51,313 nucleotides of DNA, taken from Methanobrevibacter sp. GTDB taxonomy: Archaea > Methanobacteriota > Methanobacteria > Methanobacteriales > Methanobacteriaceae. The position numbers were made by a program, and so were the translations under genes. Below, piece after piece: positions 40,476 through 44,604 of the stretch. The notes beneath the pieces were generated by a model. It saw only the letters and a list, made by a program, of their open reading frames with translations. It made no database searches and was not told the origin of the DNA. Position 1 is the stretch's first letter. Every line of letters begins with the position of its first letter. The stretch spans positions 1 to 51,313 of the forward strand of contig NZ_SUTM01000013.1 in the NCBI RefSeq assembly GCF_015062935.1. The letters run 5' to 3'.

Positions 40476-40613
40476 CGGATTCGAAAACATGGTTTTCACC
40501 ATTTTGTAAAATCCCCTCCAATTTTTCCAGACAGGGTTTTACATATTCAAACATCAAAACTTATTATCAAATTCCAACATATACCTAATTAACCAAAATG
40601 GGAGGAATATTTG

Positions 40614-41417
40614 ATGAATAGGAAAATAGCATTTGCATTAATTATAGTGGGCCTGCTTGCTGTTTCAGCAGTCAGCGCCCAGAATTCATTATTCCTGAAC
40701 GGAAATAATGATGATTCAATGTATCAGGTCTCTTTGATGCAGGCTTTCATGCATGGAGAATTTGACGGAGTAATTACAGTAGAAGATTTGAAAACACATG
40801 GTGACACTGGTCTTGGAACATTCGAAGGAGTAAACGGTGAGATGATAATTCTTGACGGAGTAGTTTATCAGGCAGCCGCCGACGGAAGCATTAATGTCAT
40901 GCAGGATAACGAAACCGTACCGTTCGCCACAATCACCAACTTTGATGAAGACGGAAAAATAGACGATATAAGCGCCAAGGACTTTGACGATTTAACAGGT
41001 CAGTTAAACAAGGAAATCGGCAAAAACAGCACAAACAACATGTATGTAATCAAACTCAAGGGCGATTTTTCAAACATTACAGTCAGAAGTGTTGAAAAAC
41101 AGGAAAAACCATACAATGAATTCACAGAAGTTGCTGCAGTTGACCAGAAAGTATTCAACCACACTGACCAGACCGGAACAGTTGTAGCGGTATACTTCCC
41201 GGAATACATGAATGAATTAAACATGCACGGCTGGCATCTTCATTTCCTGTCCGACGATAAGACAAAAGGAGGACATGTTTTAAATTTCACTGATTTCAAA
41301 GGATCAGGCCAGATTGATGAAATCCATGAATTCAACATGATACTTCCAAGTGATGACTCATTTGCAAAAATGAATTTCACAGAAGACATGACCAATAAAA
41401 TAAGCAGCGTGGAATAA
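40614..41417 (+). CDS. budA: Secreted alpha-acetolactate decarboxylase
   Basis: This 267-aa protein starts with a signal peptide (KIAFALIIVGLLAVSAVSA). The rest matches acetolactate decarboxylase, which turns 2-acetolactate into acetoin. YQVSLMQAFMHGEFDG, HGDTGLGTF and GEMIILDGVVYQ are family hallmarks. The zinc-binding HxH...H appears as HGWHLHFLSDDKTKGGH near residues 204-220. A GGAGG site lies 10 nt before ATG 40614. An exported form is unusual for a methanogen and would act outside the cytoplasm. Confidence 0.88.
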   Translation: MNRKIAFALIIVGLLAVSAVSAQNSLFLNGNNDDSMYQVSLMQAFMHGEFDGVITVEDLKTHGDTGLGTFEGVNGEMIILDGVVYQAAADGSINVMQDNETVPFATITNFDEDGKIDDISAKDFDDLTGQLNKEIGKNSTNNMYVIKLKGDFSNITVRSVEKQEKPYNEFTEVAAVDQKVFNHTDQTGTVVAVYFPEYMNELNMHGWHLHFLSDDKTKGGHVLNFTDFKGSGQIDEIHEFNMILPSDDSFAKMNFTEDMTNKISSVE

Positions 41418-41448
41418 CTCTCCAATTGAGTTATTCTTCTTTTTTTTA
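41412..41448 (+). terminator. Hairpin terminator of the acetolactate decarboxylase gene
   Basis: GAATAACTC (41412-41420) and GAGTTATTC (41428-41436) form a perfect 9-bp stem followed by TTCTTTTTTTT. The gene's TAA stop lies inside the stem. Confidence 0.75.
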
Positions 41449-41871
41449 TCACAATTATTTTTTTAATTGTCTGCATCACTAGAAAATCCCAAGATTCACA
41501 ACATTATCTATTTTTCCTGACTTTTAGGACATGCCAACAAATCAAAATTCTCAAAACATGAATCATATAGTTTTTCCAGGGATTAGAAGTGCATATGAAA
41601 AATAGCGTTGATGATTATGACTCAACGTCATATAAACTGTAATTTAAAAAACTACCTATTTTTTGTCGAAAGGGGGAGAAAATGTATTAACATATTATTT
41701 ATAAGAAAATAGGAAATCATTGAAAAATTTGATAAAAAAAGTCAGATTAATGTCTTATTGCAGAGAATAACTCTCTACAATATCCCATTTAGACATTAAA
41801 AATAATTCGATTTGTGTCTCTACGAGGTTTACTTTAAAAGAAACACTCTTGTATAATCATATTTGCATGAC
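41449..41871. other. Intergenic region
   Basis: This 423-nt stretch has no supported gene. It holds small palindromic pieces such as CGTTGA...TCAACG (about 41605-41627) and AT-rich sequence leading to the TATA box at 41872. Confidence 0.3.
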
Positions 41872-41883
41872 ATTATATAAACT
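41872..41883 (+). promoter_or_regulatory. TATA box of the mini-ORF locus, plus strand
   Basis: ATTATATAAACT fits the archaeal TATA box. Transcription would start near 41905 and give a leader of about 100 nt before ATG 42008. Confidence 0.45.
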
Positions 41884-42007
41884 TAACTATTTCTTAAAAA
41901 GGTAATTAAACAGTAGCCGTCTCAGAGAAAAGACCTCACGAAAACTTAGTTTTCAAGCTCGTCATTGACTTGTTAATATTTAACTACCAGTTAATGAGGT
42001 GAAAAAA

Positions 42008-42079
42008 ATGAGCGATTATCTTCTTTTATTTGCGACACCAATCAATGATTTAATAATTGATATAATATTAAACCAATAG
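42008..42079 (+). CDS. Mini-ORF, hydrophobic 23-aa peptide
   Basis: The ORF encodes MSDYLLLFATPINDLIIDII plus LNQ, with a GAGGTG ribosome site 6 nt upstream. The peptide is hydrophobic and could enter a membrane. It is fully antisense to the minus-strand mini-ORF at 42016-42108. Peptides this short can be chance frames, but the placement after TATA box, palindrome and ribosome site argues for use. Confidence 0.4.
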   Translation: MSDYLLLFATPINDLIIDIILNQ

Positions 42080-42108
42080 GTTCCAATTATGAAGATAACT
42101 GACTCCAT
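42016..42108 (-). CDS. Mini-ORF, hydrophobic 30-aa peptide
   Basis: The ORF starts with MESVIFIIGTYWFNIISIIK and ends with a basic tail ANKRR. It has a strong AGGAGGTG site 5 nt before the ATG. One membrane helix with a basic end recalls type I toxins of bacteria in style only. It overlaps, in opposite directions, the plus-strand mini-ORF. Confidence 0.42.
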   Translation of the reverse strand: MESVIFIIGTYWFNIISIIKSLIGVANKRR

Positions 42109-42208
42109 CGTTTTCACCTCCTAGAGACACGGAAAGAACACCAATGCAGCAAATGGGAAAAGGCCGAACTGATAAGAAATAAACAATACTTAAAAATACT
42201 AAGTTCAT
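42068..42208 (-). CDS. Mini-ORF, 46-aa peptide with strong ribosome site
   Basis: The ORF starts MNLVFLSIVYFLSVRPFPIC after GGAAGGAGGTG, one of the best ribosome sites in the window. It overlaps the 30-aa mini-ORF in another frame, so it may be a leader peptide for it. A TATA-like CTTTAAATATG (plus strand 42268-42278) lies upstream. Confidence 0.38.
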   Translation of the reverse strand: MNLVFLSIVYFLSVRPFPICCIGVLSVSLGGENDGVSYLHNWNLLV

Positions 42209-42245
42209 GTTTATTCACCTCCTTCCTAATCGAATTGAGGTCTTT

Positions 42246-42479
42246 ACTAAAAATGTATGGTTTAAATCATATTTAAAGCTTGTTGAAGCCACTTTGAAAA
42301 ATTGTAGTCATTAAAACATCCATTATAACGTTTACAGTAAATAAACGTATTTAATGCCAATGAATACATTAAAATTCATATGAAAATAGGGAATATTATA
42401 CAAATTGAGATAATTACTTCCACAAAATATATTAATTTATTAAAAAAAATAGGATAAAAAAATAAATATTTGGTTAAAA
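42246..42479. other. Intergenic, promoter of minus-strand mini-ORFs
   Basis: No gene is seen. The complement of 42268-42278 (CTTTAAATATG) is a possible TATA box for the leftward mini-ORF transcript. Confidence 0.3.
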
Positions 42480-43301
42480 TCATTTTTTAACCAGTTCTTT
42501 CAGTTCATTAATCTCAGACATCAAATCATCATTCTGGGTTTTTAAAACACTCAAATCACGCTTTAACTCATCATTTTGAGTCTTCATCAAAGCCAAATCC
42601 TGCTTAACGTCACGAAGGTCCTCTTCAATTTTTTCATCATCTATCAGTCTGTCTGTGAAAAATGATGAGAATACCGCCGTGATTGTGGAAAATACAAACA
42701 CTCCCACAAAAATCAGCACAATGGTTATTGCCTTTTCATTTAATGTCTGCGGAGTTATATCCCCGTAACCTACTGAAGTGATTGTTTCTATGACGAAATA
42801 AAGTGAATCGGTAAAACTTAAGGTTCCCCAGCTCCACAGCACCAGTGTAAATATCACTATTGTGACAAATACTCCCAAAAGCACCTTATCGATATTGGTT
42901 TTACGTATGAAATTCTCAAGGCTGGTTATGAGACTGTTGAAAAGAACGATTATTCTTAAAATCTTAAGCAGTCTGAAATATCTCAAAAGACTTACATGAG
43001 GCATGATCACAGGCAGTATTGCATCAAAAGGAATTGAAGCAATCAAATCCAGCCAGTTGCCCTTTTTTGATAAAAACTCATTTTTGGAGTCTGCTGATAA
43101 AAAGCTTACAGTCCATTCGGTTAAAAGAAATATACATATTATCAAATCAAAAGTTTGAATGAATGATACGACGCCTGCAGGGAGATTTAACAAAAGCATC
43201 AGGGATATCAGAAAAATATCCAGAACTATGAGAAACTGTAGTCCTATCCATAAGATTCCATGATTGCCTTCATTCATATCAAATATATTCAAACTATTCA
43301 C
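42480..43301 (-). CDS. Voltage-gated-type potassium channel, second copy
   Basis: This 273-aa paralog of the channel at 36382-37185 has an S4-like helix (LRYFRLLKILRIIVLF), the pore filter TSVGYGD near residue 175, and a C-terminal coiled coil with two copies of LALMKTQNDELKRD-like and LSVLKTQNDDLMSE-like repeats. It probably forms a tetrameric K+ channel. The copies are clearly diverged, so they are not a recent duplication. Confidence 0.85.
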   Translation of the reverse strand: MNSLNIFDMNEGNHGILWIGLQFLIVLDIFLISLMLLLNLPAGVVSFIQTFDLIICIFLLTEWTVSFLSADSKNEFLSKKGNWLDLIASIPFDAILPVIMPHVSLLRYFRLLKILRIIVLFNSLITSLENFIRKTNIDKVLLGVFVTIVIFTLVLWSWGTLSFTDSLYFVIETITSVGYGDITPQTLNEKAITIVLIFVGVFVFSTITAVFSSFFTDRLIDDEKIEEDLRDVKQDLALMKTQNDELKRDLSVLKTQNDDLMSEINELKELVKK

Positions 43302-44442: not shown

Positions 44443-44604
44443 TCATTTAAAAACCTCAGTAGTTATGTTAAATATCAGAAGAACAATCTGAATCAGTATT
44501 AAAATCCAGAAAAGCTTATTCTGTTTTAAATTATCATTTGTATATGTCAGATATATCAAAATTATAAGCAGTACTATATTTAATGTTATTTTAATCCAAA
44601 ACAT
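44443..44604 (-). CDS. Small two-helix membrane protein
   Basis: This 53-aa protein has MFWIKITLNIVLLIILIYLT, then a polar loop (NDNLKQNK), then LFWILILIQIVLLIFNI. The two TM helices are clear. AAGAGGCG precedes the ATG by a few bases. It follows the small-ORF/MORN cluster, and such two-TM proteins are often immunity proteins or holins. The function is not known. Confidence 0.5.
   Translation of the reverse strand: MFWIKITLNIVLLIILIYLTYTNDNLKQNKLFWILILIQIVLLIFNITTEVFK

Follow-up and report, generated by a model that had tools for sequence, protein, structure and literature searches.

A probable type I toxin-antitoxin-like module in multiple chromosomal copies in Methanobrevibacter

A short intergenic stretch that combines inverted repeats with overlapping mini-ORFs raises the question of whether it encodes a toxin-antitoxin pair and, if so, which RNA acts as the antitoxin. 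The window analyzed here is a stretch of 51,313 nucleotides that forms contig C13 in an archaeal genome of 2.5 Mb (Methanobrevibacter sp., NZ_SUTM01000013.1). The locus is flanked on one side by a gene for alpha-acetolactate decarboxylase (40611-41417; Pfam 4.7e-74) and on the other by an ion-channel gene on the minus strand (42480-43301). The preliminary description placed the locus at 41872-42278 and compared its layout to that of a type I toxin-antitoxin pair or a pair of regulatory RNAs. We found the kind of system to be aptly chosen, as the locus combines a hydrophobic peptide of ~30 aa with an antisense RNA, but the RNA is a different one and the proposed extent is too short: it misses a predicted small RNA (sRNA) gene at 41734-41852 and a promoter with an operator-like box at 42270-42305. 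The complete module measures ~600 bp (about 41733-42340 in the window; full copies span ~41733-42345), and all of its meaningful elements are read on the minus strand. Overall, we consider it probable that Methanobrevibacter carries here a type I toxin-antitoxin-like module, which is present on the chromosome in multiple copies. In a different intergenic stretch of the window, we also observed a very hydrophobic ORF of 53 aa on the minus strand (44443-44604; MFWIKITLNIVLLIILIYLTYTNDN...).

The module is found at many other sites. In the same genome, a near copy on contig C15 is 94-95% identical to the C13 module, contig C6 carries a diverged copy (~70%), and further contigs carry fragments. 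A DNA search of the genus revealed the module in 53 of 67 Methanobrevibacter genomes, frequently in multiple copies; some DNA match was present in 77 of 138 family genomes, the matches beyond the genus being short and weak. A pattern scan of named genomes returned 34 stretches, every one from a record titled Methanobrevibacter; these were mostly in metagenome-assembled genomes, and many titles name a gut or rumen source. Upon alignment of 43 full-length copies, the whole block was found to be conserved. When the 43 full copies were compared pairwise, both flanks were common to 8 of 903 copy pairs, which suggests that most copies occupy different sites and that the unit moves. The module had no match in the viral contigs by pattern or in the plasmid and phage collections by blastn, and a viral or plasmid origin was rejected on these results.

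The three mini-ORFs of the preliminary description, of 23 aa on the plus strand and of 30 and 46 aa on the minus strand, are all present with strong ribosome sites. It had made its case depend on whether relatives keep these frames; we found that the 30-aa frame was kept, that the 46-aa ORF was kept only as an overlapping ORF, and that the 23-aa frame was not. The 30-aa ORF (42016-42108, minus strand; MESVIFIIGTYWFNIISIIKSLIGVANKRR), with its Shine-Dalgarno (SD) sequence at 42114-42122, is conserved and encodes a probable toxin with the consensus MELIIFxIGTYxFNIxSIIKxL..., a length of 25-31 aa and a last residue that is mostly Arg or Lys. It is small and, as judged by inspection, hydrophobic, like the peptides of type I systems. 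The SD sequence was kept in the 43-copy alignment, and 40 of the 43 copies start with GTG (28), ATG (11) or TTG (1), the standard start codon being gone in the other three (ATA in two, ACG in one). Indels of 12 nt leave the frame intact and most indels preserve it; copy L026 is frame-shifted, and copy L024 has a stop at codon 20. With L023, L024 and L026 left out of the counts, codon position 2 varied least and position 3 most. The dN/dS ratio from 19 long ORFs was 0.62, as compared with 0.74 and 0.69 in two shifted frames; because a ratio of only 0.62 is insufficient alone as proof of coding, the frame, start, SD and codon-position evidence was used instead. Diverged paralogues retain the peptide pattern (e.g., VEIIAFSLAAYYPNVICILKVLMSAKIRGA), and the profile still recognizes very divergent copies. 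At E <= 0.001, this profile matched 34 of 150 order genomes, all of them Methanobrevibacter and none outside the genus. A scan of 30 peptides (the number in the peptide alignment, A2) matched nothing in NCBIfam and nothing in Pfam below E 0.15, and no convincing known protein family emerged from Pfam, NCBIfam, PADLOC, PHROGs or PDB, the PHROGs matches being weak ones to holins (0.05-0.09). The peptide is likely to be a membrane-acting toxin.

The start of the peptide ORF is overlapped by a leader ORF, which is 46 aa long here (42068-42208, minus strand; SD at 42215-42226). The leader ATG was kept in 42 of the 43 copies, and the ORF extends beyond the peptide start in 40 of them, in all three relative frames. 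As the overlap occurs in any of the three frames, it is the overlap that is kept and not the leader peptide.

Downstream on the same strand lies a predicted antitoxin sRNA of ~118 nt (41734-41852, minus strand), which scored 128 bits with covariance model R1 and showed a minus-strand fold z of -3.5. Its layout comprises a BRE and TATA box and a 5' hairpin with AAACCUC at its end; an unpaired stretch then leads to a long hairpin, behind which most of the 43 copies have a T-run (L029 has a weak one, and that of L033 is displaced). In the window, its predicted promoter P2 (GTTAAG-TTTATATA) is located at 41874-41887, the anti-SD sequence AAACCUC at 41824-41830, and the terminator, a long hairpin followed by TTTTTTT and marked by pair conservation, at 41734-41799, all on the minus strand. 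The element TTTATATA was present on the minus strand in 42 of the 43 copies, counted at any position, and the conservation at P2 is one-sided, towards the minus-strand BRE. Two TATA-like boxes facing each other had been described here; however, the conserved bases at the left box, TATATAAACTTA, read leftwards as BRE and TATA on the minus strand with a poorly conserved other flank, and since the right box has this leftward direction too, the boxes do not face each other. In an alignment of 36 of the 43 sRNAs (A1), 97.4% of 898 pair cells over 25 pairs were standard, six pairs showed two-sided changes with 0 of 500 shuffles as high, and sliding the pairing partners lowered the pairing to 41-49%. 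A hand count gave 76 G-U cells in the helices, which would be unpaired on the opposite strand; together with the fold energies, which are better for the minus than for the plus strand, this points to a minus-strand sRNA. The covariance model found 121 matches, spread over 43 of the 138 family genomes, all but one of these (42) being Methanobrevibacter; the one match beyond the genus was weak (G085, E 4.2e-4), and six matches were in the present genome. No Rfam family matched 41400-42500 at E up to 1.

The two genes are closely linked. We compared the 69 peptide HMM matches at E 1e-4 or better (of 74) with all 121 sRNA matches and found a same-strand sRNA downstream of 63 peptides, 62 at a distance of 147-188 nt and one at 392 nt. 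Contig ends truncate two of the remaining six loci, and at two more a divergent sRNA occupies the usual position. No sRNA was found for the last two, which makes 2 of the 67 peptides that are not truncated in this way. At L213, where the peptide lacks an sRNA, the leader and promoter are also lost; at L216, the leader and peptide are present with no detectable sRNA. In the other direction, 58 of the 121 sRNA matches had no peptide match upstream, a count that may include divergent peptides missed by the profile. Two sRNA genes of the present genome (L060, G000:C10:86951-87084, and L062, G000:C27:27052-27182) have no adjoining peptide match and are possible orphan antitoxins; the address of the L060 sRNA is nearly that of L063, a locus of another species. 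Additionally, two sRNA matches lie near a single peptide gene at L024, L042 and L059, and at L073 (G021:C14, ~124470-124760) codon ~6 of the peptide joins directly to the sRNA terminator at its 3' arm, which suggests a decayed copy that has lost the intervening part.

Behind its anti-SD sequence, the sRNA carries two address segments that complement the mRNA of its own copy. Address 1 (GUAGAGACAC, 41814-41823), the segment after CCUC and contiguous with the anti-SD, complements site 1 (GUGUCUCUA, 42122-42130) directly upstream of the peptide SD; address 2 (AAUCGAAUU, 41804-41812), the next segment, complements site 2 (AAUUCGAUU, 42228-42236) directly upstream of the leader SD. Because all of these segments, and thus both RNAs, lie on the minus strand, the complementarity is not a matter of mere overlap. 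The addresses vary widely among copies, and the sRNA and mRNA segments change together. From the 74 peptide matches, we kept 55 paired loci with an SD and start, a stop, and an sRNA with a recognized terminator arm 60-450 nt downstream, of which 35 were nonredundant. In these 35 loci, the mean perfect run at the peptide site was 8.89 nt in cis versus 4.94±0.22 nt when permuted (maximum 6.06 of 20000), and that at the leader site was 7.57 nt versus 5.90±0.19 nt (maximum 6.83 of 20000). The first set, in which 20 of the 43 copies served as nonredundant representatives besides all 43, gave 8.65 nt versus 4.78±0.31 nt (maximum 6.45 of 20000) at the peptide site and 9.0 versus 5.55±0.36 (maximum 7.25) at the leader site. 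An unsupervised search of each sRNA against the whole upstream region used 107 of the 121 sRNA matches, leaving out 11 without a recognizable terminator arm and three with less than 250 nt upstream. The best complement adjoined a ribosome site in 56 of the 107, as compared with a mean of 7.7 and a maximum of 18 in 40 permutations; for the other 51, no complement of at least 7 nt was scored beside a ribosome site. In the tandem array L065, each of three sRNAs fits its own mRNA (13, 9 and 15 nt exact), with unrelated addresses even though only a single residue distinguishes two of the peptides. The leader-site match was absent in a clade of nine copies (L003, L034, L035, L048, L049, L051, L053, L055 and L056), and L013 (G036:C40:87982-88622) showed no convincing cis pairing at either the peptide or the leader site. 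The sRNA addresses of L013 resemble those of L016 (G007) and not its own mRNA, and this locus may be a recombinant or an assembly chimera. Across the copies, sRNA control of the small peptide appears strongly supported.

The mRNA is predicted to be ~350 nt long and to carry the leader and peptide ORFs (41897-42248, minus strand); both ends are approximate, the transcription start being placed ~25 nt from the TATA box. Promoter P1 with its upstream operator-like box (42270-42305, minus strand), which is kept in the 43-copy alignment, consists of ACAATTTTTCAAAGTGGCTTCAACAAGC and the TATA box TTTAAATA at 42270-42277, and the box contains the direct repeats TTCAAAG and TTCAACAAG at a spacing of 11 bp. 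Allowing up to 3 mismatches, its 21-mer occurs at five sites in the genome, as compared with none for the reversed control: four module loci (C13, C15, C6 and C19) and one small unrelated gene on C4. This confinement suggests a dedicated regulator. On C4, an exact P1 box (GGCTTCAACAAGCTTTAAATA; L004/L008, G000:C4:111286-111306) precedes the unrelated gene, whose ~52-aa product (MPYDYYDHFLKQRNH...) has no convincing Pfam match, and similar boxes lie upstream of relatives of this gene at L076 and L070; the C4 gene and the toxin-like loci possibly form a shared regulon.

The structured character noted for the locus is beyond chance, as 41897-42248 has a minus-strand folding energy of -90.9 kcal/mol (z -3.9), which none of 100 shuffles equalled, and the block is conserved in the 43 copies. 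The repeats described at the outset are also real. The outer perfect 10-bp inverted repeat (AAAGACCTCA, 41929-41938, and TGAGGTCTTT, 42236-42245) corresponds to an arm at the mRNA 5' end (AAAGACCUCA, 42236-42245, minus strand) that is predicted to pair with the arm at 41929-41938 in the 3'UTR or with the leader SD. The two arms covary in cis, scoring 8.8 in the 20 representatives versus 6.85±0.44 when permuted (maximum 8.5 of 20000). The structured 3'UTR itself (41896-41988, minus strand) contains the 41929-41938 arm and is closed by GGTAGTTAAA...TTTAATTACC followed by TTTTT, which is terminator-like. The inner inverted copies (GAGGTGAAA...TTATCTTC; plus strand from ~41998, minus strand 42091-42121) correspond to a long stem in which a 5' arm (42091-42121) with the peptide SD, start and first codons is predicted to pair with a 3' arm at and just past the peptide stop codon (41995-42023), both on the minus strand. 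In the same predicted fold, the leader SD pairs with CUUUCC. For the peptide-start stem, permutation in the 55-locus set did not support cis-specificity (z 0.5) and did not show compensatory changes.

Comparison of the copies at the level of sequence establishes the peptide family, the sRNA family, their fixed linkage, the private complementarity at two sites, the 5'-3' covariation, and the structure and strand of the sRNA. From these elements we infer a scheme of transcription, translational block, coupling, toxicity and trigger. The mRNA from P1 would carry the short leader ORF overlapping the start of the ~30-aa peptide and would fold into an inert form, in which the 5' end is held by the 3'UTR, the leader SD by CUUUCC, and the peptide SD and start by the long stem. 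By translational coupling, ribosomes translating the leader would expose the start of the peptide. The ~118-nt sRNA, made from its own promoter, would block both starts through its anti-SD CCUC and two copy-specific addresses, pairing directly upstream of the peptide SD and the leader SD; the peptide would be released if the sRNA were lost or diluted or if P1 were induced. We lean on balance towards the fuller reading that these loci form an independent archaeal type I toxin-antitoxin family. Here, a bivalent antitoxin RNA, with one anti-SD and two private addresses, would shut off the toxin as well as the leader coupled to it; the addresses would diversify and thereby insulate tandem paralogues; a dedicated operator may fire all copies together under stress; and the whole would be a self-preserving unit spreading in the genomes of gut methanogens.

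The rival that survives best retains the same RNA circuit and assigns it to a non-toxic small membrane peptide, such as a stress modulator, a signal or a regulator of a membrane complex, with the sRNA as an ordinary regulator. The lack of a convincing family match for the peptide in Pfam, NCBIfam, PADLOC and PDB agrees with this reading, as does the P1 box in front of the unrelated ~52-aa gene, which fits a regulon. We nevertheless consider it rather unlikely, since the module is multicopy, mobile and tandem-repeated with private addresses, and sRNA matches often lack a peptide match (58 of 121, some of which may have divergent peptides) whereas peptides for which no sRNA was found are rare (2 of 67). 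A mobile multicopy unit with few unaccompanied peptides is the pattern expected of a harmful peptide.

A second rival regards the module as a non-functional, MITE-like mobile repeat in which template switching at the DNA level keeps the inverted segments alike and the ORFs are incidental. The spread of the module to many sites is in keeping with such a repeat, and the sRNA:mRNA duplexes show no excess of G-U pairs (6 G-U versus 8 A-C in 25 nonredundant loci), a result that does not favour selection at the RNA level. However, the complementary segments coincide with two ribosome sites and are contiguous with an anti-SD; the peptide, its start, the promoters, the terminators and the 5'-3' pairing are all conserved; the sRNA helices contain the 76 G-U cells that the other strand would leave unpaired; and the peptide profile recognizes very divergent copies. 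We regard this explanation as very improbable.

The preliminary description had taken the antisense partner to be an overlapping plus-strand transcript with the 23-aa ORF, whereas the partner we found is the sRNA from its own downstream gene, which has the same orientation as the peptide ORF. The start column of the plus-strand ORF (start 42008) reads ATG, GTG or TTG in 28 of the 43 copies, the length of its frame lies anywhere from 0 to about 60 aa, and its apparent ribosome site is the opposite arm of the stem over the start of the 30-aa ORF; with neither start nor frame conserved, a plus-strand RNA or 23-aa peptide was ruled out as the partner. Convergent promoters with an antisense RNA opposite the 30-aa mRNA are thus the least credible explanation, for although the 23-aa ORF and a ribosome-like site exist in the window and the frame antisense to the 30-aa ORF is open in 32 of 43 copies, the plus-strand start and length vary, the TATA context is conserved in the minus direction, and the minus strand folds better.

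If the reading as a type I toxin-antitoxin family is true, a natural archaeal family would mean that peptide toxicity under RNA control reaches into a second domain and would provide a clear test case for archaeal sRNA-mRNA coevolution, with RNA design rules readable from the 55 paired loci (35 nonredundant). It would also be of use as a genetic switch and possibly as a target for controlling the growth of methane-producing archaea in the gut.

Among known systems, the hok mRNA has a 5'-3' contact. The hok/mok/sok system of plasmid R1 and enterobacterial chromosomes further combines an inert mRNA fold, a leader overlapping the toxin ORF, an antisense RNA that stops the leader and hence the toxin, and a small membrane toxin (PMC4147584). 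The module is similar in its predicted inert mRNA, in a leader that overlaps the peptide ORF (40 of 43 copies), in an RNA predicted to act against the leader and the peptide, and in its probable small membrane toxin. Unlike Sok, which lies opposite the hok leader, the module sRNA is a same-strand downstream gene that addresses both ribosome sites; the host is archaeal, and searches of Pfam, NCBIfam and Rfam revealed no sequence relation to Hok or Sok. In TisB/IstR-1, ShoB/OhsC, ZorO/OrzO and DinQ/AgrB of E. coli, the antitoxin sRNA is a neighbouring gene with limited complementarity, and TisB, a hydrophobic toxin of 29 aa, is controlled by a stress promoter (PMC4147584). The predicted module sRNA likewise has a gene of its own next to that of the peptide, and its complementarity is limited in length. 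The E. coli genes are divergent and pair in a long 5'UTR away from the toxin start, whereas the module genes are co-directional, in 63 of 63 linked pairs (same strand being the criterion of this count), and pair at the ribosome sites of both ORFs; the divergent layout of TisB/IstR was not found.

The Ibs/Sib type I loci of E. coli encode small toxins and occur in several chromosomal copies. Ldr/Rdl loci are also described as multicopy and chromosomal, with Ldr in tandem and leader coupling through ldrX proposed for ldrD (PMC4147584). The module resembles both in being multicopy and chromosomal with a small peptide; in contrast, both use overlapping cis-antisense RNA, and their sequences are unrelated to the module.

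Among archaeal methanogens, sRNA162 of Methanosarcina mazei is an sRNA with two pairing domains, which targets the mRNA of a transcription factor and a cis 5'UTR and which its authors distinguish from a type I system that they cite (PMC3510493). The module sRNA resembles it in its methanogen host and its two pairing segments, and differs in that the excerpts on sRNA162 describe no conserved toxin peptide (PMC3510493). In the literature searched, most subscription papers being outside its scope, there was no earlier report of an archaeal type I system. The msoT1/msoA1 system of Microcystis aeruginosa is a type I system outside the classical phyla, and its description confines the type I systems known earlier to Proteobacteria, Firmicutes and Tenericutes (PMC12390103, 2025). 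On this account, the module shares with msoT1/msoA1 a position outside those phyla and differs from it in that msoT1/msoA1 is bacterial. To a domain for which the searched papers report none, the module would, as its sequence comparison suggests, add a variant of the type I kind.
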